Assembly: GCF_016892625.1 (NCBI RefSeq)
Contig: NZ_JAFEMW010000004.1
Location: 372,001 to 436,000 of the forward strand
DNA length: 64,000 nucleotides
Source: Brevibacterium sp. RIT 803
GTDB taxonomy: Bacteria; Actinomycetota; Actinomycetes; Actinomycetales; Brevibacteriaceae
Reading direction: 5' to 3'
This document shows, in pieces, positions 2,337 through 40,190 of this stretch. Each line of letters opens with the position of its first letter. The stretch's first letter is position 1. The position numbers were made by a program, and so were the translations under genes. A model generated the notes under the pieces. The model made no database searches and was not told the origin of the DNA. It was given only the letters and a program-made list of their open reading frames with translations.

Positions 2337-3125
2337 TCAGTCGCGCACCCAGGTCTCCGCCCAGGCACGAGCGCCGTTCATCATCAGTCCGACGTCGGCA
2401 CCGACGAGGACGAATGAGGCACCGGCGTCGAGGTATTTCCGTGCCTGTTCGGGATCGAAGGCATTGACGCCGACGAGTTTGCCGGCCGCCTTGACCGCAT
2501 CGAAGGTCCGCAGCACCGCATCAGTGACATCGGGATGCGTCTGCTGCCCGAGCAGACCCATCGAAGCAGCAAGGTCAGAAGGCCCGACGAATACTGCATC
2601 GATTCCGTCGACTGCAGCGATCTGCGCCGCGTTGTCCACCGCCGTTGCCGATTCGATCTGCACGGTCAGGGACACGAGTTCCTCGGCCCGCGCGAGGTAG
2701 TTCGGCACCGCGTTCCAGCGGGAGGCCCGCGCCAGTGCCGATCCCACCCCACGCGCGCCGCGAGGTGGGTAGTACACGGAACGCACAGCCGCCTCGGCGT
2801 CGGCAGGGGTATCGATCATCGGCACGAGCAGATTCTGCGCACCGAGGTCGAGGTACTGCTTGATGAGAACCTGGTCGTTCACGGGCACCCGCACGACGGG
2901 CGTCGCGGGGTATCCGTTCATGGCCCGCAGCAGACTGGTCGTGGTTTCCAAGCCGATCGGCGAATGCTCGGCGTCGATGAGCACCCACTGCATCCCTGAG
3001 GCCGCGGCGATCTCTGCAGCTGCGGGCGAGCCGGAGCAGACCCACATTCCGGCAAGATACTCTCCGTCATCCAGCTCGGTCACGCGCTGGGTGAAGGTCT
3101 GCGGCAGCTCTACTCGAAACGACAT
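2337..3125 (-). CDS. hpaI: 4-hydroxy-2-oxoheptanedioate aldolase (HpaI/HpcH family)
   Basis: Last enzyme of the homoprotocatechuate meta-cleavage route: it splits 4-hydroxy-2-oxo-heptane-1,7-dioate into pyruvate and succinic semialdehyde. The 262-residue protein is the usual family length. Visible class II aldolase features are the catalytic His in DAEHSP, the Arg in VVRVPV, and the metal ligands Glu in VQIESA and Asp in VGPSDLA. The ATG at 3125 starts the conserved N-terminus and lies 16 nt inside the end of the upstream hydratase gene, which suggests translational coupling. It is the promoter-distal gene of the minus-strand hpa operon and is followed by a strong hairpin at 2275-2312. Confidence 0.93.
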   Translation of the reverse strand: MSFRVELPQTFTQRVTELDDGEYLAGMWVCSGSPAAAEIAAASGMQWVLIDAEHSPIGLETTTSLLRAMNGYPATPVVRVPVNDQVLIKQYLDLGAQNLLVPMIDTPADAEAAVRSVYYPPRGARGVGSALARASRWNAVPNYLARAEELVSLTVQIESATAVDNAAQIAAVDGIDAVFVGPSDLAASMGLLGQQTHPDVTDAVLRTFDAVKAAGKLVGVNAFDPEQARKYLDAGASFVLVGADVGLMMNGARAWAETWVRD

Positions 3126-3895
3126 GTGATGACTCCCAGATCTCCGTAGTCTGCGTGGACGGTGTCGCCCGGGCTGACCCACATAGGGCGGGTGAAGGAC
3201 CCAGCCAGGACTGTCTCGCCGGCCTGAAGGACATCGCCGTGTTCGGCTAGTTTGTTCGCCAGCCACACGATTCCGCGGGCCGGGTGGTCGAGGACGGCGG
3301 CTGCGAGGCCGGAGTCCTCAACCGACTCATTGCGGTACAGCAGCGCACCGACCCGGCGCAGATCAATAGCGTCGACGGCCACCGGATTGCCGCCGAGGAC
3401 CATGGCCCCCAACGCAGCGTTGTCGGAGATCGTGTCGACGATGGTGCGGCCTTCCATCTCGATCCGCGAGGACAGCACCTCAAGCGCCGGCACCACGTAT
3501 TCGGTGGCGCGCAGCACATCGATGAGACTGATGCCTGGTCCGCGCAGCTCGTCCTTCAGCACGAAGGCGAGTTCGACCTCGACACGCACGCCCGAATACT
3601 GCGAGTGGTCGATGACCGAACCTGTGTCATAGACCTGGTCGGCGAAGATCGCACCGTAGTCGGGTTCGCTGATCCCCGTCGCCTGCTGCATCGGCTTCGA
3701 GGTCAGTCCGATCTTGTGTCCGATCAGTCTGCGCCCGGATGCTTCACCGCGGCGACGCCATTCATTCTGCACGGCGTAGGAGTCCTCGACGGTCATGTCG
3801 GGGTACGTGGTCGTGAGCAGACCGATCTTCGTCCGGTCCTTCTCCGCTTGCGCCAGATCGTCGGCGATTGCCGCGATCGTTGATTCATCGAGCAT
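3110..3895 (-). CDS. hpaH: 2-oxo-hept-4-ene-1,7-dioate hydratase (HpaH/HpcG)
   Basis: Hydrates 2-oxo-hept-4-ene-1,7-dioate to the substrate of the HpaI aldolase. It is a 261-residue member of the FAH-fold 2-keto-4-pentenoate hydratase family, with the metal-binding acidic cluster in RVEVELAFVL and PALEVLSSR and a conserved GHKIGLTS segment. I prefer the ATG at 3895 over the GTG at 3901 because the GAGGAG ribosome-binding site is then 8 nt away. The gene follows hpaD by 12 nt and overlaps hpaI by 16 nt in the same operon. Confidence 0.92.
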   Translation of the reverse strand: MLDESTIAAIADDLAQAEKDRTKIGLLTTTYPDMTVEDSYAVQNEWRRRGEASGRRLIGHKIGLTSKPMQQATGISEPDYGAIFADQVYDTGSVIDHSQYSGVRVEVELAFVLKDELRGPGISLIDVLRATEYVVPALEVLSSRIEMEGRTIVDTISDNAALGAMVLGGNPVAVDAIDLRRVGALLYRNESVEDSGLAAAVLDHPARGIVWLANKLAEHGDVLQAGETVLAGSFTRPMWVSPGDTVHADYGDLGVITCRFE

Positions 3896-3907
3896 GTGCA
3901 CGTCTCC

Positions 3908-5020
3908 TCAGAGCTGGTGGCCCAATTTGAACTCGTCTTCTCCGTCGTCAGCACCGGAATGCTCACCGAAGTTCGTCGTCGCGTCCTCACGGCGAGTGTA
4001 GGAGAACCCGTCGGCGCCGATCGTGACGTCCATTTCGGAGTCGTCGGTGCGCTGCGTCAGCGACACCGGGTTGCCCTCGAGGTCGAGGACCGTGGAGGCG
4101 TCGGTGTACCAGGAGGGCACGACCGGGTTGCCCCACCAGTCACGACGCTGGTTGTCGTGGACGTCCCAAGTCACTCGGGGGTTGTCGGGGTCGCCGGTGT
4201 AATAGTCCTGCGTGTAGATCTCGATCCGGTGACCGTCCGGGTCGCGCAGATAGAGGTAGAAGGCGTTCGAGACGCCGTGGCGACCCGGCCCGCGCTCGAT
4301 TGCGTCGGACAGGCGCAGCGCACCGAGCTTGTCGCAGATGGCGAGGATGTTGTGCTTCTCGTGCGTGGCGAACGCGACGTGATGCATGCGCGGTCCGTCA
4401 CCGCCGGTCATCGCGGTGTCGTGCACGGTGGGCTTGCGCCGCATCCACGCAGCGAAGACAGTGCCCTCGGAGTCCTGGATGTCCTCGGTGACGCGGAATC
4501 CCAGGTTCTCCATGTAGTCCACTGCCTTCGGCACGTCCGGGGTGACCTGGTTGAAGTGGTCGATACGCACGAGTGCACCCGGAGAGTAGAGGTCGTAGCG
4601 CCAGGCCAGACGTTCGACGTGGTCGACCTCATAGAAGAACTCGTAGGGGAAGCCGAGAGGATCCTGGACGCGCACCGAATCACCGATGCCGGCGACGAAT
4701 CCCTCCTTCTTCCGCACAACCGGGCAGCCGAGTTCGCGGTAGTACGCCTCGGCGGCGTCGACGTCTTCGGGGCTGCGCACTCGGTAGGAGAATGCGGCCA
4801 CAGCGGCAACCGGACCCTGGCGGAGGATCAGGTTGTGGTGGATGAACTCTTCCATGGATCGCAGGTAGACGGTGTTCTCGTCTTCCTCGGTGACCTGCAG
4901 GTCGAGCACATCGACGTAGAAGTCGCGCGACTTCTTCAGATCGGTGACGACGAGCTCCATGTAGGCGCACCGCAGAATGTCCGGGGCCGGAACTGTTGGG
5001 ACTGGAATTGTTTGGGACAT
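3908..5020 (-). CDS. hpaD: Homoprotocatechuate (3,4-dihydroxyphenylacetate) 2,3-dioxygenase
   Basis: Extradiol ring-cleavage enzyme that opens 3,4-dihydroxyphenylacetate to 5-carboxymethyl-2-hydroxymuconate semialdehyde. It is a 370-residue type I two-domain VOC-fold dioxygenase. Counting from the ATG at 5020, the residues known from the Brevibacterium fuscum HPCD structure fall at the same numbers: metal ligands His155, His214 and Glu267, and second-sphere Asn157, Trp192, His200, His213, Arg243, His248 and Tyr257. This supports both the start codon and the function. Whether the metal is Fe (as in HPCD) or Mn (as in the Arthrobacter MndD) cannot be read from sequence. An AGAGGA ribosome-binding site precedes the start. 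It lies 11 nt downstream of hpaE. Confidence 0.97.
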   Translation of the reverse strand: MSQTIPVPTVPAPDILRCAYMELVVTDLKKSRDFYVDVLDLQVTEEDENTVYLRSMEEFIHHNLILRQGPVAAVAAFSYRVRSPEDVDAAEAYYRELGCPVVRKKEGFVAGIGDSVRVQDPLGFPYEFFYEVDHVERLAWRYDLYSPGALVRIDHFNQVTPDVPKAVDYMENLGFRVTEDIQDSEGTVFAAWMRRKPTVHDTAMTGGDGPRMHHVAFATHEKHNILAICDKLGALRLSDAIERGPGRHGVSNAFYLYLRDPDGHRIEIYTQDYYTGDPDNPRVTWDVHDNQRRDWWGNPVVPSWYTDASTVLDLEGNPVSLTQRTDDSEMDVTIGADGFSYTRREDATTNFGEHSGADDGEDEFKLGHQL

Positions 5021-6537: not shown

Positions 6538-7271
6538 GACTTGTCCTCTTCTCTGTCGATGGTTCCTGTGCTTGCAGGGATATCTGGGGTTTTGGCTTGG
6601 GCTTCCTGGTAGCTGGCGAGGGTCGTTGAGCGGTGATTCCTCACGACTCGCTCGATCTCCTCCGCCGAGGCGCGGGCCCGGATGAGTGCGACGATCCTGG
6701 CGTGCTCGTCGACCGAACCCCGTGCCCGTTCGGGCACGAAGGAGAAGGTCGAGTTCCGCAGGTGCGCAAGACGGTCCCATTCGACGGCGACCAGGGTGTG
6801 CAGCCGTTCGTTCGGGCACCGTCGAAACAGTGCCGCATGGAATTCGTGATTGAGGCGGGTGAACTCGGTGGGATCGAAGTCGGCGAGCAGGTCACGCATG
6901 CGCTCATTGATCGCATCCGCCTCGGCGAGATCGTGCTCGTCCAGGAACTCAAGAGCCTGCGCGGTCGCGGCTCCCTCGAGGATCGCCACGGCCTCCATCG
7001 ACTGGGCGTAGGAGCTCTGGTCGACCATGGCGACCCGAGCCCCGACATTGCGTTCGAAGGTCACGAGCCCATCGGCCTCGAGTCGGCGGATGGCCTCCCT
7101 GACCGGAACGACGGAGGTATCGAGCTCGAGAGCGATCTGAGCCAGCACCAGTTTGTGCCCGGGCTCGAAGGTCTGGTCCGCGATGCACTTGCGGATCCAA
7201 CGGTAGGCCGTCTCCGCTTTGCTCAGTGAGCTGGGCTCCGCCGTTGCGTCGACGGCGTCAGCGGTGGTCAT
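6534..7271 (-). CDS. GntR/FCD-family transcriptional regulator inside the hpa operon
   Basis: A 245-residue FadR-subfamily regulator. An N-terminal winged helix at about residues 18-85 (YRWIRKCI, TSVVPVREAIRRLEADG) is followed by an all-helical FCD ligand domain with the metal-binding pattern NHEFHAAL, DEHARIV and NHRSTT. It is co-transcribed with the pathway genes, with ATGA overlaps at both ends, so it probably autoregulates the operon. The GTATA-centred 12-mers at 8785-8796 and 10279-10290 resemble operators of this subfamily and are its likely targets. The effector would plausibly be a pathway intermediate, which is inference. Confidence 0.88.
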   Translation of the reverse strand: MTTADAVDATAEPSSLSKAETAYRWIRKCIADQTFEPGHKLVLAQIALELDTSVVPVREAIRRLEADGLVTFERNVGARVAMVDQSSYAQSMEAVAILEGAATAQALEFLDEHDLAEADAINERMRDLLADFDPTEFTRLNHEFHAALFRRCPNERLHTLVAVEWDRLAHLRNSTFSFVPERARGSVDEHARIVALIRARASAEEIERVVRNHRSTTLASYQEAQAKTPDIPASTGTIDREEDKS

Positions 7272-8749
7272 CGTGAGGCTTTCCAGGCTTCGAACTTCTC
7301 TTTCCATTCGCCCTTGGGCGGGAACAGCGACTCGATCGGGTTGCCGGCGGCCACCTGCTCGGCCACCCATCCGTCTTCGATCTCCTTCGTCAGCGCCGCC
7401 TCGGCGACTTCCTCAACGAGATCGCGTGGGATGACGATGACTCCGTCGTCGTCTCCGACGATCACGTCACCGGGCAGCACTGTGGCGTTTCCGCAGGCCA
7501 CGGCCACGTCGGATTCCCACGGGACGTGCTTGCGCCCGAGTACGGCGGGATTCCTCGACGTTGAGAACACGGGGAGGATCCCGGCCACCTCGGCGGAGTC
7601 GCGGACTCCCCCGTCGGTGATGACGCCTGTCGCGCCCTGAGCCTTGGCCCGCAGCGCGAGCACGTCGCCGAGGGTTCCCGAGCCGGACTCACCGCGTGCT
7701 TCGATGACGACGACCTCACCGGACTGCAGAGAGTCGAAAGCCCGCTTCTGGGCGTTGTATCCGCCGCCGTGTGATGTGAACAGGTCCTCGCGGTTGGGCA
7801 CGAAGCGCAGCGTCTTCGCGGTGCCCACGACCTTGCTTCCGGGCACGAGCGGGGAGACGCCTTCGATGACGACGTTGTTGAGTCCTCGTCCGCGCAGCTG
7901 CGCGGAGAGACCAGCGGTCGGAGCCTCAGTGAGCTTGGCGCGCAGGTCCTCACTCAGCGGACCGGTGGACGATTCCTCCGCTGCCAGACCAGCCTCCTCA
8001 CGTGATCCCCAGGCGTCGGCCTGCAGCGCTTCGGTCACGGCTGGGATGCTGCCGAGGTTCGAGTCGAAGGCGCCCGGTCCCTCGACGACATTCGTGACGA
8101 GGCGACTCGAGCTGAGCTGTGATCCGGTGCTCGCCGAGGTGGTCGTGACTTCGACCTCGACGGTGTCCCCAGGTACCACAACGGTTGATCCTGCGGGAGT
8201 TCCGGTGAGGATGACGTCACCGGGCTCCAGGGTCATGTGCTGGCTGAGATCGGCGATGATCTGGGTCAGGGGGAAGATCAGCTGTGCGGCACTCGTGCCG
8301 TCGTCCTGCTTGACCTCGCCGTTGACCCAGGTGCGGATGCGCAGCGACTGAGGGTCAGCCTCGGCGGCGGGGATGATGTCGGGACCCAGCGGCGTGTAGC
8401 CGTCACGGCTCTTCGACCGCAGGTTCGACCCCTTGTCGGGGGATTTGATGTCGTAGAGGCCGAAGTCGTTGGACGCCGTCACTCCCTCGACGAAGGTCCA
8501 GGCCTCGTCGGGACTGACGGATCGGGCCGTGGTGCCGATGATGACCGCGATCTCGCCTTCGAAGGCAAGCAGCGATGTTCCGGCGGGACGCTCGATCGCC
8601 TCACCAGATGCGGCCAGGGAGCTGGTGGCCTTGAGGAAGTAGGACGGCTGGGACGGCCGTTTTCCGCGCTGGGCGGAGCGTGACTCGTACGCCACATGGA
8701 CGGCAATGATCTTGCCCGGTCGGACTGGGACACCAGCTGGAGTCGACAT
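7268..8749 (-). CDS. FAH-domain decarboxylase/isomerase fused to RraA-like aldolase
   Basis: A 493-residue two-domain enzyme. Residues about 10-225 are a fumarylacetoacetate-hydrolase-type domain like HpaG/HpcE (FEGEIAVIIG, ASNDFGLYDI, EPGDVILTGTPAGS), which in this pathway decarboxylates and isomerises the C8 acid. Residues about 265-480 are an RraA-like domain (GDVLALRAKAQGATGV, DGGVRDSAEVAG), the fold of 4-hydroxy-4-methyl-2-oxoglutarate aldolase and oxaloacetate decarboxylases. A linker joins them in one unbroken frame. It is the first gene of the hpa operon and starts at the ATG at 8749 facing the divergent transporter. The FAH half very likely fills the hpaG role; the job of the RraA half is unknown and could be a second decarboxylation. 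Confidence 0.85.
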   Translation of the reverse strand: MSTPAGVPVRPGKIIAVHVAYESRSAQRGKRPSQPSYFLKATSSLAASGEAIERPAGTSLLAFEGEIAVIIGTTARSVSPDEAWTFVEGVTASNDFGLYDIKSPDKGSNLRSKSRDGYTPLGPDIIPAAEADPQSLRIRTWVNGEVKQDDGTSAAQLIFPLTQIIADLSQHMTLEPGDVILTGTPAGSTVVVPGDTVEVEVTTTSASTGSQLSSSRLVTNVVEGPGAFDSNLGSIPAVTEALQADAWGSREEAGLAAEESSTGPLSEDLRAKLTEAPTAGLSAQLRGRGLNNVVIEGVSPLVPGSKVVGTAKTLRFVPNREDLFTSHGGGYNAQKRAFDSLQSGEVVVIEARGESGSGTLGDVLALRAKAQGATGVITDGGVRDSAEVAGILPVFSTSRNPAVLGRKHVPWESDVAVACGNATVLPGDVIVGDDDGVIVIPRDLVEEVAEAALTKEIEDGWVAEQVAAGNPIESLFPPKGEWKEKFEAWKASR

Positions 8750-8770
8750 CGATCTCGCACCTCATTTCGA

Positions 8771-8797
8771 TTGGCTTTCACCCAGATCGTATATGAT
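8771..8797 (+). promoter_or_regulatory. Candidate promoter for the MFS gene, overlapped by operator
   Basis: TTGGCT (8771-8776) and TATGAT (8792-8797) are separated by 15 nt, shorter than ideal. The -10-like box lies inside the GATCGTATATGA motif, so a bound repressor would block it. This is a tentative call made by eye. Confidence 0.35.
8785..8796. promoter_or_regulatory. Putative GntR operator, site 1 (GATCGTATATGA)
   Basis: This 12-mer sits between the divergent hpa operon and the MFS gene. The embedded ATCGTATATGAT is an imperfect palindrome centred on TATA, in keeping with FadR-subfamily operators that contain GTATA. An identical 12-mer occurs at 10279-10290 upstream of the flavin hydroxylase, which links both transcripts to one regulator, presumably the GntR protein encoded at 6534-7271. 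Confidence 0.65.
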
Positions 8798-8920
8798 ACG
8801 GTTCCGGAGGACAAGTAGTCCGCGTCACATGATTGAGGTCACGTCAGCGTTCCGATACCTGCGTCCTCCTCCCATGGGACAGCGGCACTAACGCAGGAGT
8901 CTCAATGCGACACAGGAGTC

Positions 8921-10264
8921 ATGGTGGGTAAAAAGCACACCCAAGGTCGGGTGGCATTCGCGACCGTCGTCGGTACCAGCATCGAGTGGTACGACTACTT
9001 CCTCTACGCGGCTGCCTCTGGGCTGATCTTCAACGAGCTGTTCTTCGGCCCGCTGGGTTCGACTCTGTCGACCATGGTCGCCTTCGCCACCGTCGGCATC
9101 AGCTTCCTGTTCCGACCCCTGGGCGCCTTCCTGGCCGGACACTACGGCGACAAGCTGGGGCGACGGGTCGTCCTCATCATCACACTCATCGCTATGGGGG
9201 CCGCCACCGCTCTGATCGGCTTCCTGCCGACCTACGATTCGATCGGCATCGCCGCTCCCATCCTCCTCATCGTCCTGCGCATCATCCAGGGCGTCTCGGC
9301 CGGCGGCGAGTGGGGTGGAGCGGTTCTTCTCGCCGTCGAGCACGCGGAGCCCAAGCATCGCGGACTGCGCGGATCCTTCCCGCAGATCGGCGTCTCCATC
9401 GGACTCATCCTCTCCTCGGGCGTGCTCGCGCTCATGACCACGATCGCACCTGGAGAGGCCTTCCTCGAGTGGGGCTGGCGGGTGCCGTTCTTCCTCTCGA
9501 TCCTGCTCGTCGCCGTGGGCTACTGGATCCGCCGCGGGGTCGAAGAGTCCCCGGTCTTCCACGAGATCGCCGAGCGCAAGGAGCAGGTGACCAACCCTCT
9601 GGGTAAACTGCTCAAGAGCCACTGGCTGCTCGTCATCCTGGCCTCGCTGCTCTTCGTCGGCAATAATGCCGCCGGCTACATGACCACCGGCGGCTACATC
9701 CAGAACTACGCCACGGACCCAACCGGACCGGTCGGGCTCGATCGCGGTCCCGTACTCTGGGCGGTCTCCGCCTCGGCGGTGTCATGGCTGATCTTCACGA
9801 TCATCGCCGGCTCCGTCTCGGACAAGATCGGTCGCAGGAACACCTATCTGCTGGGCTGGATGCTGCTGCTGATCGGCATCTTCTCACTCTTCCCACTGGT
9901 CAACACCGGCAGCATCTGGATGCTCTTCCTGGGACTGATCATCCTCACCGTCGGGCTCGGATTCACCTACGGGCAGCAACCGGCGATGTATGCCGAGATC
10001 TTCCCCTCCAGCGTGCGATTCTCCGGTGTCTCGGTCTCCTATGCGATCGGGTCGATCCTGGGCGGAGCCTTTGCTCCCACGATCGCAAAAGCACTGGTGG
10101 CCTCCACCGGCACAACCACCTCGGTGGCCATCTACCTGGCCATCATCACGCTCATATCTCTGGCCGCAACCTTGGCCCTGCGTGACCGTTCGCGCATCCC
10201 GCTGGGTCCCGACCACGAGGAGGAGCAGTCAGTGAGCCCGATCATAGGCATTGGCTCAAGATGA
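8921..10264 (+). CDS. MFS transporter, metabolite:H+ symporter family
   Basis: A 447-residue, 12-helix integral membrane carrier of the MHS (ProP/KgtP/ShiA-like) family, with the typical start TSIEWYDYFLY, the loop GHYGDKLGRR after helix 2 and GSVSDKIGRR between helices 8 and 9. The ATG at 8921 follows CAGGAGTC. Its position divergent from the hpa operon and just before the hydroxylase gene suggests uptake of the aromatic acid degraded by this cluster. The exact substrate is not shown by the sequence. Confidence 0.85.
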   Translation: MVGKKHTQGRVAFATVVGTSIEWYDYFLYAAASGLIFNELFFGPLGSTLSTMVAFATVGISFLFRPLGAFLAGHYGDKLGRRVVLIITLIAMGAATALIGFLPTYDSIGIAAPILLIVLRIIQGVSAGGEWGGAVLLAVEHAEPKHRGLRGSFPQIGVSIGLILSSGVLALMTTIAPGEAFLEWGWRVPFFLSILLVAVGYWIRRGVEESPVFHEIAERKEQVTNPLGKLLKSHWLLVILASLLFVGNNAAGYMTTGGYIQNYATDPTGPVGLDRGPVLWAVSASAVSWLIFTIIAGSVSDKIGRRNTYLLGWMLLLIGIFSLFPLVNTGSIWMLFLGLIILTVGLGFTYGQQPAMYAEIFPSSVRFSGVSVSYAIGSILGGAFAPTIAKALVASTGTTTSVAIYLAIITLISLAATLALRDRSRIPLGPDHEEEQSVSPIIGIGSR

Positions 10265-35954: not shown

Positions 35955-36833
35955 ATGTGCAGACTTCTCGGCTACATCTCCCCCACTCCGGCGAGCGCAG
36001 CGGATCTCATCGGTGCCGAGGAATGTCGTCAGTGGCAGAACTTGGGCCGACTCCATGTCGATGGCTGGGGCACCGCGTGGATCTGACCGGAATCTGATTC
36101 AGCCGAATCGGCCCGTCCGCAGGGAACCACCTCGGGCACCTTCGACCCCGGCTCCGACGTGCAGGACACCGTGTCTCGGGGAGGACGTCCTGAAAGGTAT
36201 CGCACCCCGCACGAGGGAGCAGACGACCCTCATCTCACGGAAGTCCTCACCGTCCGTCCGACGGTCGCGCGGATCACTCACTTGCGCATGGCCACGCACG
36301 GGACTGTCGACCTCACCGAGAATTCGCACCCGTTCCTCGCCGACAATATCGCCCTGGCGCACAACGGGTCCATCCATCCGATCGAACGCCTACGCGAATA
36401 CGTCACGACTGCCGAGGCCGAGCGCATCGACGGAACTACGGACACTGCAATCATGTTCGCCCTCATTTTGCGACGCGTGGGCCAGGGCGACACCCTGTTC
36501 GACGCCACCATCGCGACCGTCCGGATGCTGCGGGCAGACTTCGACCATCCGGGGATCAATCTGCTCGTCCTCAATGCCGAGGAGATGATCGTCGTCCATG
36601 CGACTTCGGGAACACCGATTCCATATAAGAACTTCGACACTTCCGGCACCGGTGGTGAACTGTCGCTCGATCACAAGGATCACTACTACCGGATGAGCTG
36701 GCTGCGCTTCGACCACGGAGCGATGATCGTGTCGTCCTCGGGCCTTGACCATAGGGGCTGGAGTCTCGTTGAGCAGAACACGGCGATGCGGCTGACCGTG
36801 GCGGATGGTTCGGAGACTGTGGTGGGGGTTTAG
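35955..36833 (+). pseudogene. Class II glutamine amidotransferase broken by an in-frame TGA
   Basis: The reading frame begins MCRLLGYISPTPAS, with the N-terminal nucleophile Cys2 typical of class II (YafJ/EgtC-like) amidotransferases, and runs through DGWGTAWI to a TGA at 36084-36086. The same frame then continues with no further stop to 36833 and contains the family's HLRMATHG, ENSHPFLADNIALAHNGSI and GTTDTAIMF segments. So a single nonsense codon splits an otherwise intact gene of about 292 codons. A good GGAAGGAA site precedes the ATG. It may be a recent pseudogene or a base-call error. The 3' end overlaps the convergent gene by 4 nt. Confidence 0.8.
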
Positions 36834-37378
36834 GCCGTAAGGTTGCGGCAGGTGCCGCCCAGACCTGCGAGGAGTCCCGCGTTGCTGGCAACCGCAGCAG
36901 GTTGAGAACGCCAACCACTTGCGTGCTTGGCGAAGAACGCGATCTCCAGTTCGCTCCCGAGGCCCAGCAGTCCGCCGAGGAGATTGACGGGGACGTCTGT
37001 CGTATACGTCCCGCCGCCGGTGGAAGTGGTATTCCCGGTGAGACTGAACCCTGTAATCGGAGCCAGAACTGATCCCAAGCCGCTAGTGGAGGCTTCGACG
37101 ACGACGTCACTAAGTTGGTAGCCCGCTGGCAGCTTCCAATAGACTTCGATCTTGGCCCCGAGACCCAGAACACCGGGGCTGTACTCGCAGGACTTCGTTA
37201 AGGTCGGAGCAGGAACCTTCGCGGCCGTAAACGACCCGTTGGCCCTCTCCGAATCGGTCCAAGCGGCCATCGTCGAACGCACACCAGACAAGCCGAGGAC
37301 GAGCATGACCAAGGCAAGGGCGGCGATGAGAGCTTGGACTCGGCGGTTCCGGAATAGCGATTGCCTGCGGTTGCTCAC
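36830..37378 (-). CDS. SipW-dependent-type exported protein 3
   Basis: A 182-residue exported protein. The N-terminus has the alternate (SipW-type) signal: a basic stretch, a hydrophobic core (ALIAALALVMLVLGLSG) and the motif MAAWTDSERANGSFTA in place of the normal AxA region. The mature part has exactly two Cys (KSCEYSP and GTCRNL), as do the two other exported proteins of this operon. The GTG start at 37378 has a strong AGGAGGA site and overlaps the SipW gene stop as GTGA. It is probably a fibre or surface component processed by the SipW-like peptidase. Confidence 0.8.
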   Translation of the reverse strand: MSNRRQSLFRNRRVQALIAALALVMLVLGLSGVRSTMAAWTDSERANGSFTAAKVPAPTLTKSCEYSPGVLGLGAKIEVYWKLPAGYQLSDVVVEASTSGLGSVLAPITGFSLTGNTTSTGGGTYTTDVPVNLLGGLLGLGSELEIAFFAKHASGWRSQPAAVASNAGLLAGLGGTCRNLTA

Positions 37379-38769
37379 AGTCTCCTCCTGCTGCGTGTTC
37401 TGTGCACAACTGCTGAACCTGTTGCGATGAGCACCCCGGCAGCAAGGAGGATCCAGAGCCATCCTTCGATGCCGGTGCGCGGGAGGTCGCCGGGGTTGAC
37501 TGGGTTGTCGGAGTCGCCGGGGTCAGGCTTGCCTGGTGGCCCGGGTTCACCCGGGTCTCCGGGGCCGAGCGAGACTTCTTCTCCTTGGCCGATGGCGGTC
37601 AGGCGCACTCCACTGCGGTGACCTGCCACCGCCTCGGCGTCGGCGTTCTTGTTCATGGTGACTGTCACCTGAACTCGGCGCTTCTCATCACTGGGCATTT
37701 CGAGCAGTCGCCGGTCATAGTCGGGCGCGGCACCGAGGTCGGTCAGTGCCACGCCGCTGACCGGCTCTGCCGCGCCGCCGGGGCACTCATCCATCGGCAC
37801 GATCTGGGAACATGTGCGAACGTCAACGAGTAGTTGTGACGCGAGGGCCTCCGACAACTGGCCGGAGCCGATCTCCAGTTCCACTTTTCCAGGGTCGGGA
37901 GCATCGGCCCACACGTCGACCGTCCAATCAGCCGAATCACCGGGACTGAGGCTGAGCATTGTCGATTCGTCTCCGGTTGCCCGAATTCGCAGGTACTGTC
38001 CGTGCACCTCGGCGGGGGTAGTGGTCTCCGCACCGGAAGCAGCCGATGCCGGCTCAGGGGCTGGGATTGCGGCGAGTTCCTGCGGTAAGGGCCCGAACAT
38101 TCCTGTTCCGGCGGCGACGATGGCCGCGACGGCGGGAAGCGCCACTGCGTGCTTGGGTGATCGGGTTACGGCTGACTGCGGTTCGGAGTGCGTGGCCGAC
38201 CTTGCGGGTGCCTCGACGACGTCAACGCGGTCGGCAGCGTCGTCCTCGTCCTCGCGTCGAGGCCAGAACGCCCAGACGACGAGCAGGGACGCTGCGATCG
38301 TGATGCCGCCAAGAGCATAGGGATTGCGCAGCTTCTGGATCGCCGGTGCGATCCCCGGGATCGAGAACATGACCTTGCGGACGGTGTCCGCAGTGTACGG
38401 CTCGGGGTCCTTCGCCTCGTTGGCGTCGCCCTTCATCTCGAACGTGACGGTGCCGGATGTGGATTCCGTCTCTAGGATCGACGTCACGCGGTGGGTCACG
38501 GGCAGGACCTTCTCACCACGGTCGGCGGTGACGATGTCTCCAACTTCCATCTCCTCGGCGGGGATCTCGTGGACGAACGCGATAGATCCAGCGGTGATCG
38601 TTGGACTCATCGACCCGGTCTTGAACATCATGATCGACACGTTGAAGACGAAGCTGAGAATGACGAGGACGATGCACACGACACCCAGTGCGGCGAGGAC
38701 GTTGAGCAGTGCTCCGCCGAGCCACGATGACGAGCTCCTTCTCCGGGAACGGTCGTGAGAATGTGTCAC
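37375..38769 (-). CDS. SipW-type signal peptidase fused to an LPXTG wall-anchored domain
   Basis: A 464-residue two-part protein. Residues 1-175 are an S26B (archaeal/ER-like, SipW) signal peptidase: TM helix at about 18-48, catalytic Ser53 in KTGSMSPT, His93 in PVTHRV in place of the bacterial Lys, the GDANEAKDPEP box at 114-124, and a second TM at about 152-170. Residues about 207-226 form a third hydrophobic segment, and 250-395 a secreted beta-rich domain with Cys320 and Cys329. A collagen-like Gly/Pro stretch then leads to LPRTG (429-433), a TM helix and a basic tail. The GTG start at 38769 overlaps the preceding gene as GTGA. It presumably processes the three alternate-signal proteins of the operon. 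Confidence 0.85.
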   Translation of the reverse strand: MTHSHDRSRRRSSSSWLGGALLNVLAALGVVCIVLVILSFVFNVSIMMFKTGSMSPTITAGSIAFVHEIPAEEMEVGDIVTADRGEKVLPVTHRVTSILETESTSGTVTFEMKGDANEAKDPEPYTADTVRKVMFSIPGIAPAIQKLRNPYALGGITIAASLLVVWAFWPRREDEDDAADRVDVVEAPARSATHSEPQSAVTRSPKHAVALPAVAAIVAAGTGMFGPLPQELAAIPAPEPASAASGAETTTPAEVHGQYLRIRATGDESTMLSLSPGDSADWTVDVWADAPDPGKVELEIGSGQLSEALASQLLVDVRTCSQIVPMDECPGGAAEPVSGVALTDLGAAPDYDRRLLEMPSDEKRRVQVTVTMNKNADAEAVAGHRSGVRLTAIGQGEEVSLGPGDPGEPGPPGKPDPGDSDNPVNPGDLPRTGIEGWLWILLAAGVLIATGSAVVHRTRSRRRL

Positions 38770-39485
38770 GACGGAGTCTTCGAATTGGCAGTAAATGTCC
38801 AAGTATTCGACGCGCTCGTGCCCTGGGCAACGCTCGGAGTGTCCGTCGGAAGGGTGACCTCGAAGCAGTAGGCTCGCACCGAACTGCTGGCTTTTCCGAC
38901 CAACTGCGAGCCTGCACCTTGGCGGTCTTTCTCTGACAGATTCGTCGTAGCTGAAGTGCCGCCGTAGACATAGTCCGCCGATGCTGTGAATGTCGAGGCA
39001 CTGCACGTGTACCCACCTGTTGAATAGGAGGACGTCACTGCACGATAGACCAGTGCCCCGGCGATGCCGCTGGTGCTGCCAGTTCCTCCGCTCAAGATCT
39101 TCAGCTCACCGTCAATAGTCGTGTCCGGTGTAGTGCGGATGAACACCGGGGCGTAGACCTTCGATCCGGGGTACATCCCGGTGGCGTTGAAGGTCATCGT
39201 CGACGTGTTGTTCCAGTTCGAGGCGTCGACCGACAAATCAATGCTGAACGTGCCCGCTTTGAACGACCCGGTCGCTTCCTCGGTGTCGGTCCACGCCGCC
39301 AATGTCGCTGCCGCACCGATGCCGAAGACCAATCCTCCGGCGAGGACCGCCTTGATCCGGCGGTTGTACAGTCGGCGTCGGATCTGCTCACGCTCCCGTT
39401 TCCGGCGTCGACTCTCTGAGCGGGTCTCGTTCGAGACCCGCTCAGACGGGGTCGGATCGCCAGAGGCATCCGTCGGAAACTGCAC
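38766..39485 (-). CDS. SipW-dependent-type exported protein 2 (TasA/camelysin-like)
   Basis: A 239-residue exported protein. An unusually long, charged N-terminal extension (about 40 residues rich in Arg/Glu) precedes the alternate signal RRIKAVLAGGLVFGIGAAAT with LAAWTDTEEATGSFKAGTF. The mature part is Ser/Thr-rich and beta-predicted, with two Cys (YTCSAS, RAYCFEV). It starts at a GTG at 39485, only 14 nt after the previous gene, and no other start codon precedes the signal. A 32-bp palindrome (39415-39446) lies inside the N-terminal extension. It is probably a structural subunit of a surface fibre. Confidence 0.8.
   Translation of the reverse strand: MQFPTDASGDPTPSERVSNETRSESRRRKREREQIRRRLYNRRIKAVLAGGLVFGIGAAATLAAWTDTEEATGSFKAGTFSIDLSVDASNWNNTSTMTFNATGMYPGSKVYAPVFIRTTPDTTIDGELKILSGGTGSTSGIAGALVYRAVTSSYSTGGYTCSASTFTASADYVYGGTSATTNLSEKDRQGAGSQLVGKASSSVRAYCFEVTLPTDTPSVAQGTSASNTWTFTANSKTPS
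39415..39446. repeat. Perfect 15-bp inverted repeat with 2-nt centre inside a coding region
   Basis: TCTGAGCGGGTCTCG (39415-39429) and CGAGACCCGCTCAGA (39432-39446) are exact reverse complements around TT. It is the strongest palindrome in the window and is located within the first 25 codons of the second exported-protein gene. As RNA it would be a very stable hairpin between the first gene of the operon and the rest; as DNA it could be a protein-binding or recombination site. Confidence 0.9.
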
Positions 39486-39499
39486 GAATTCCGCTGGAG

Positions 39500-40105
39500 T
39501 TATTCAGCAGAAGTTGCGGTGAACTGCCACTGGGCGCTGGCAGCGTCACCCTCGGTCAGGTCGTCGCCGGCAGTGACCTGGAAGCACAGAGCGACGGGGG
39601 CGCCTGCCGTGCTGCCTGCACCTGCCGTCAAGTCAAACCCTTGGGCGCCAATGGTCGCATCCAAGGCTGTACCGGCCGGAACGACCGTGGTGCCCGTTGC
39701 ACCTTCAGTACACGACGCGGCATCGTCGACCGCGACGATCCCGTAGCTCAGGTTCGCTTCGTTAGCACCGCTGCCCGCAGCGGACTCGAGGACAACGCTA
39801 GCGTTGTATGTCGTCGCATCATCGAGACGGAGAACGAACGGAGCTGCCACGGTGTCCCCGGGAGTGAGATTATCGCCGCCGTCGAGGTCGAAGGTGAGAT
39901 CCGCGGCGCCCGCTGAGCTCTCGTGATCGGTGAAGTCGGTTCCATTGGTACTTCCCTGCACGTTGAACGAACCGGCACCGAAGGTCCCTTCGGCCCATTC
40001 GTTGTCCGTCCAGGCGGCCAGCGTCACCGCAGCTCCGACACCCAGAACGATGCCACCCGCGAGGATGGCCTTGAACTTGCGAGAACGCGTCGTGGACTGC
40101 GTCAT
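39500..40105 (-). CDS. SipW-dependent-type exported protein 1 (TasA/camelysin-like)
   Basis: A 201-residue exported protein and first gene of the operon. The alternate signal is compact: RSRKFKAILAGGIVLGVGAA then TLAAWTDNEWAEGTFGAGSF. The mature protein is Gly/Ala/Thr/Asp-rich and acidic, with two Cys (ASCTEGATG, ALCFQV). The same AAWTD-E-G-F-A pattern occurs in the other two exported proteins, so one peptidase can serve all three. The ATG at 40105 has AAGGAG 6 nt upstream, the best ribosome-binding site of the first two genes, so this protein may be the most abundant. Confidence 0.82.
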   Translation of the reverse strand: MTQSTTRSRKFKAILAGGIVLGVGAAVTLAAWTDNEWAEGTFGAGSFNVQGSTNGTDFTDHESSAGAADLTFDLDGGDNLTPGDTVAAPFVLRLDDATTYNASVVLESAAGSGANEANLSYGIVAVDDAASCTEGATGTTVVPAGTALDATIGAQGFDLTAGAGSTAGAPVALCFQVTAGDDLTEGDAASAQWQFTATSAE

Positions 40106-40122
40106 TCTGACTCCTTGAAAAA

Positions 40123-40190
40123 GCACATATGTGCACAAAACACCAGAAGTGGTGACTTGACTATTATCGTATAGTTACTTTCCAATTATA
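40123..40190 (-). promoter_or_regulatory. AT-rich promoter region of the SipW operon
   Basis: It contains the perfect 12-bp palindrome GCACATATGTGC (40123-40134), just upstream of the ribosome-binding site, and a consensus TATAAT on the minus strand (40185-40190). No convincing -35 is visible. The gap of 252 nt to the tusA gene is markedly AT-rich for this genome, in keeping with a regulated promoter. Confidence 0.5.

Follow-up and report, generated by a model that had tools for sequence, protein, structure and literature searches.

A four-gene operon in a Brevibacterium genome probably encodes an actinobacterial fibre system of the TasA type. The operon lies on the minus strand of a 64,000-nucleotide stretch from Brevibacterium sp. 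RIT 803 (the whole stretch is referred to as the window), a strain whose closest named relatives are B. antiquum and Brevibacterium sp. 239c. In the order of transcription it comprises the genes A and B, a gene in which a SipW-type signal peptidase is joined to a surface domain with an LPRTG sorting signal (hereafter the fusion), and gene D, all of them in frame. The fibre would be held by a sortase-anchored base, and the chain containing both peptidase and base would be split at an internal signal.

In the model we propose, A and B would be TasA-like jelly-roll subunits that are exported via the Sec pathway. The SipW-type peptidase would cut between the two alanines of the motif AAWTD and thereby free a conserved N-terminal strand, which would insert into the next subunit by donor-strand exchange. 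In D the same N-terminal motif precedes a putative Ig/FN3-like domain, and this protein probably initiates fibre growth in the manner of TapA. Lacking an N-terminal donor strand of this kind but bearing LPRTG, the beta domain C-terminal to the peptidase probably serves as the base linked to the wall; it may be attached by the class E-like sortase of this genome. Peptidase and base would be made as one chain, with the third hydrophobic segment acting as a type I signal inside it. At this point housekeeping signal peptidase I probably cleaves, such that the peptidase stays in the membrane and the base is free for sorting.

An earlier, sequence-only reading of the window had described a surface-fibre system with dedicated SipW-type export and had taken the processing enzyme for a protein sorted to the wall. 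The kind of system it named is borne out by the TasA-like predicted fold, the strict operon and the phylogenetic co-occurrence described below. By contrast, the wall-sorted enzyme turned out to be its weakest part: such sorting of the peptidase is improbable, as the two halves are separate in 17 loci, where the anchor has an ordinary Sec signal, and fused proteins retain this signal internally.

The alternate-signal proteins A, B and D

Genes A (window 39500–40105, minus strand; 201 amino acids, likely ATG start at 40105) and B (38766–39485, minus strand; 239 amino acids, likely GTG start at 39485) encode paralogous alternate-signal exported proteins, both predicted to be TasA-like pilins. Their mature parts, that of A beginning at about position 40015, are 27% identical in an alignment. 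Gene D (36830–37378, minus strand; likely GTG start at 37378) encodes a third alternate-signal protein with the AAWTD motif, a putative Ig/FN3-like domain and two cysteines. GTGA overlaps are found at the B/fusion and fusion/D junctions, and no sigma-70-like promoter or terminator above chance was detected in the operon region.

The presence of three alternate-signal neighbours had been noticed before and is confirmed by TIGR04088, a profile of 34 positions for SipW-dependent-type signals, whose cut-off of 19 bits is exceeded by A (38 bits), B (36.4 bits) and D (21.6 bits). No other protein of the whole 4.48 Mb genome matches this profile. The signal motifs (AAWTDNEWAEGTF in A, AAWTDTEEATGSF in B, and AAWTDSERANGSF in D) all have a tryptophan at position P2′. 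TasA, which has an aromatic residue at P2′, is poorly cut by signal peptidase I of E. coli (PMC10269814). The two cysteines reported earlier for each mature part are not only present but conserved: exactly two occur in 64 of 68 A/B proteins and in 24 of 24 D proteins, and the anchor domain of the fusion shares this pattern (36 of 37).

Profile searches of solved structures with A/B, the anchor domain and D gave no convincing match, the FN3 matches of D in the PDB being weak. Three D homologues do match fn3 (E value 1.7e-5), and the motif AWTD is shared by the D family. TapA, a complete Ig fold, starts TasA fibres by supplying its own N-terminus (PMC10151520); a putatively Ig/FN3-like protein with an AWTD motif recalls this initiator. 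The camelysin/TasA family PF12389 was not passed by B (E value 0.017; 15.4 bits versus a cut-off of 22.5).

Predicted folds of A and of the anchor domain

The AlphaFold2 (AF2) model of mature A (predicted local distance difference test score, pLDDT, 87) has a predicted jelly-roll fold of the TasA type. Its best match in a Foldseek search is the TasA fibre 8aur (E value 1.5e-5, probability 1.00, TM-scores 0.50/0.39), which is also the only PDB match below 1e-3; the matches that follow include the archaeal 0406 filament and subunits of type 1 pili. VIA, used as a second aligner, places FimH/FimG-type and TasA chains together at Z scores of 7–8, and the fold class of A is therefore firmer than its exact nearest relative. 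Residues 1–11 of mature A are predicted to be disordered and yet rank second in conservation among 161 eleven-residue windows. A stretch that is conserved although predicted to be disordered agrees with a strand that becomes folded only within a neighbouring subunit, as in TasA, whose donor strand comprises residues 28–38 at the start of the mature protein (PMC9674648).

The anchor domain of the fusion (residues 246–402; window 37564–38034, minus strand) contains two invariant cysteines and is predicted from its AF2 model to be a beta sandwich of the TasA/MSCRAMM type. Foldseek relates it to the TasA fibre 8aur with an E value of 4.8e-4, and VIA does so with a Z score of 8.7 and a root mean square deviation of 3.0 over 132 residues. 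Domains of staphylococcal LPXTG adhesins (MSCRAMM) are also similar, EbpB and FnBPA being among the fold matches. Its N-terminus is not conserved, ranking 185th of 209 windows.

This second resemblance, together with the metallo-endopeptidase name that camelysin-like proteins bear in Pfam, would suit a view in which the exported proteins are secreted adhesins or enzymes that merely use the SipW-type signal and do not build fibres. We regard this as unlikely, given that the TasA fibre and donor-strand pilins dominate the fold matches of A, that the N-terminus predicted to be disordered is conserved, and that the invariant residues show no evident catalytic motif.

Architecture of the peptidase–anchor fusion

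The fusion gene (window 37375–38769, minus strand) runs from a GTG at 38769 to a TGA at 37375 and encodes 464 amino acids. Its peptidase part (38250–38769, minus strand) consists of a first transmembrane segment, the residues Ser53, His93, Asp115 and Asp121, all four invariant in 16 aligned homologues, and a second transmembrane segment ending in WAFWPRR. With 63.4 bits it passes TIGR02228 (SipW/archaeal/endoplasmic reticulum type; cut-off 51.85). It also shows the traits of the S26B group, which has Ser-His in place of Ser-Lys and an aspartate following a GD motif. The proposal that an S26B peptidase with Ser53 and His93 shares one frame with an LPRTG anchor is confirmed. The score with NF046067, the Bacillus SipW equivalog, is 48.2 bits against a cut-off of 190, as befits a related protein that is not the equivalog. 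On present evidence the locus as a whole appears to work like TasA/SipW, but A and B fall short of the curated camelysin profile and the peptidase is no Bacillus SipW equivalog.

Downstream of the peptidase part follow the third hydrophobic segment (residues 206–226; 38092–38154, minus strand), the anchor domain, and a spacer rich in glycine and proline (residues 403–428; 37486–37563, minus strand) which is not conserved in the homologue alignment. The latter had been taken for a collagen-like linker, a term we abandon because it contains only about four G-x-y triplets, which are variable or absent in homologues. The protein ends with LPRTG (residues 429–433), a hydrophobic stretch and the basic tail RSRRRL (37378–37485, minus strand). 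TIGR01167 (cut-off 15.9) scores 13.5 with the whole fusion, 17.0 with its C-terminal part and 19.2 in the genome scan. Apart from this sorting signal, no Pfam or NCBIfam family was found for the anchor domain.

Fused and separate forms

With a profile of the whole fusion, 24 of 57 Brevibacterium genomes were seen to have the full-length frame, uninterrupted by a stop in every case; carriers include B. aurantiacum, B. antiquum, B. sandarakinum, B. sediminis, B. permense and B. oceani. The fusion also occurs in Microbacterium oxydans, in other members of Microbacterium and in further families. The sequence-only reading had held that separate halves in homologues would betray a sequencing error. 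Separate genes do exist in relatives, namely in 17 loci, but the stop-free frame in 24 Brevibacterium genomes and in other genera leaves practically no chance that sequencing or assembly joined two genes artificially.

In Microbacterium resistens, the peptidase (227 amino acids) is overlapped via ATGA by a second gene that encodes the anchor with a signal of its own ending in APALA-AT. Among 396 genomes of the order, 42 have the anchor domain and 186 a peptidase of this type; 40 regions were annotated. In the loci read, peptidase and anchor form one frame in 30 and are separate in 17. One family (f13) mostly has the order A, B, anchor, D, peptidase, in which peptidase and anchor are not adjacent, and fusions occur where the anchor gene directly follows that of the peptidase. 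On a 58-row tree of the peptidases the label fused or separate needs at least seven changes, and the switch is thus recurrent in evolution; the starred branches alone force six changes for the fused label versus all others. The tree gives no direction of change.

A different partner is found at locus L143 (genome G235, approximately 3120–4352, plus strand), where the peptidase continues in frame into a D homologue that has the SipW-type signal TEASW; here the enzyme is joined to its own presumed substrate. The fused partners seen are a wall-anchor domain, in several lineages, and the FN3-type substrate of L143. A broader notion, which we put forward tentatively, is that these fusions are exported polyproteins in which the peptidase has repeatedly been joined, via an internal signal, to whichever exported protein follows it in the operon. 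Signal cleavage would then yield a membrane protease and a surface part, with one peptidase per fibre base at the assembly site.

A further peptidase locus, divergent and comprising two alternate-signal genes but no anchor domain, is present in two Brevibacterium genomes that also have the fusion (G012 and G160; loci L150 and L151).

Linkage, co-occurrence and wall sorting

Of 57 Brevibacterium genomes, 33 have both a SipW-type peptidase and TIGR04088 proteins, 19 have neither, and 3 and 2 have only one of the two (Fisher test, 4e-10, kinship not being corrected for). Around the anchor domain, alternate-signal genes adjoin in 45 of 47 loci, and at least two of them plus the peptidase do so in 40 of 47. 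A sorting motif of the form L[PA]xTG is present in 44 of these 47 loci (LPxTG in 28, LAxTG in 16). The genome studied here has a single sortase match, located away from the operon and of class E appearance upon inspection of its sequence, and about 16 LPXTG signals above the TIGR01167 cut-off. Another of these signals, belonging to an 813-codon frame, is found at 2143–2238 on the plus strand of the window. In a genome with a single class E-like sortase (G000, contig C6, 274801–283372), three large frames of 645–827 codons with LPXTG are clustered.

Fate of the third hydrophobic segment

At the N-terminus of separate anchor halves there is a plain Sec signal with an AxA site. Since the third hydrophobic segment of the fusion aligns with these signals, it is, judged by this alignment, the Sec signal of the separate anchor in an internalised form. 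In fusions outside Brevibacterium the segment usually ends in a clear AxA (e.g. PAPASA-AT, PPPAHA-AG or PAEPAQA-AP). By mechanical count, AxA is found no more than 26 residues past the hydrophobic core in 20 of 30 fusions and in 16 of 17 separate anchors, and the mean hydropathy of the fused segment is slightly below that of the separate signals. The site is less clear-cut in Brevibacterium, the candidates in the window fusion being LAA-IP or ASA-AS.

That residues 207–226 might be an internal signal able to split the protein was foreseen in the sequence-only reading, and this part of its suggestion stands. It had also suggested that the protein could cut itself, which we consider unlikely whether in cis or in trans. 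Peptidase and site do lie on one chain, and the peptidase–D fusion of L143 with its TEASW signal would be freed only by a cut of the self type. With the exception of L143, however, the internal signal lacks the AAW motif and also the aromatic residue that SipW-type substrates characteristically have at P2′, which applies to the window fusion and the anchor fusions alike, and separate anchors have plain Sec signals. Cleavage by housekeeping signal peptidase I is thus the likelier route.

Alternatively, the fusion might stay whole, its sorted C-terminal domain holding the peptidase between membrane and wall so that processing occurs at a fixed assembly site. We give this only a minor chance, albeit a slightly better one than self-cutting. 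The peptidase and this type of anchor are kept together in all 24 Brevibacterium genomes that have them, with in-frame linkers that vary in length, and roughly half of the species read lack strict AxA. It is, however, difficult to reconcile with the 17 loci where an ordinary secreted anchor is encoded by a separate gene, and with the signal-peptide character and the clear AxA sites that the internal segment retains in most fusions outside Brevibacterium. Moreover, repeated switching between fused and separate forms suggests that the link itself is unneeded.

Several observations weigh against the fibre system with a sortase-anchored, cleaved-off base that we favour. The Brevibacterium segment has strict AxA in only the other half of those species and at a long distance from the hydrophobic core, and could stay uncut. 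The similarity of A to TasA rests on one predicted model; PF12389 stayed below its cut-off in the members scanned (1 of 68 A/B proteins had an E value below 0.1), and A/B profiles gave no sequence match to solved TasA. The choice of sequences, made in part with a signal profile extending into the mature N-terminus, favours to some degree the conservation measured there. Finally, the signals known for class E sortases are of the LAxTG form (PMC5148588), whereas the motif here is LPRTG.

Comparison with known systems

The closest parallel is tapA-sipW-tasA of B. subtilis, where a dedicated SipW-type peptidase is likewise encoded beside alternate-signal substrates in overlapping genes. The likeness extends to the TasA-like predicted fold, the conserved mature N-terminus, the aromatic residue at P2′ and the presence of one substrate with a different, putatively Ig-like domain. 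By contrast, the Brevibacterium locus, which belongs to the Actinomycetota, has a sortase-anchored domain fused to the peptidase, and its substrates have two conserved cysteines and lack a sequence match to TasA profiles. The sipW-bsaABC genes of Clostridium perfringens also combine SipW with several secreted proteins, which form polymers stable in sodium dodecyl sulfate and needed for pellicles; BsaA, however, has no LPXTG motif and a nearby sortase is dispensable (PMC7395162). In Bacillus cereus, sipW-calY1-calY2 resembles our locus in that two paralogous camelysins are encoded with one SipW, but no wall anchor or fusion is described there (PMC10151520). The predicted LPXTG-anchored beta sandwich is reminiscent of sortase-anchored basal pilins and MSCRAMM adhesins, from which the locus differs by its linkage to a SipW-type peptidase and by the lack of an adjoining pilus-specific sortase. 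We found no report on actinobacterial alternate-signal exported proteins or on such fimbriae in Brevibacterium, which is weak evidence of novelty as subscription papers were outside the scope of the search.

Donor-strand fibres of the TasA type have been described in Bacillaceae, with related filaments in archaea. The present locus points to an actinobacterial form that would be widespread; Brevibacterium itself colonizes surfaces such as cheese rinds. In Bacillus, TapA has been proposed to have an anchoring role; a TasA-like domain with a sortase signal would explain directly how the fibre is attached to the Gram-positive wall. With the processing enzyme repeatedly fused to what is presumed to be the base, the locus offers a testable case of an exported polyprotein.

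Neighbouring genes

A frame resembling glutamine amidotransferase-type proteins (window 36159–36833, plus strand) runs towards D, and the ends of the two overlap by 4 bases. At loci L045 and L046 (approximately 7050–9224), the place of D downstream of the fusion in Microbacterium is taken by a long open frame with RCC1-like repeats (YSGQGQTGSDNL...NLWGRGYNASGIIGDGT).

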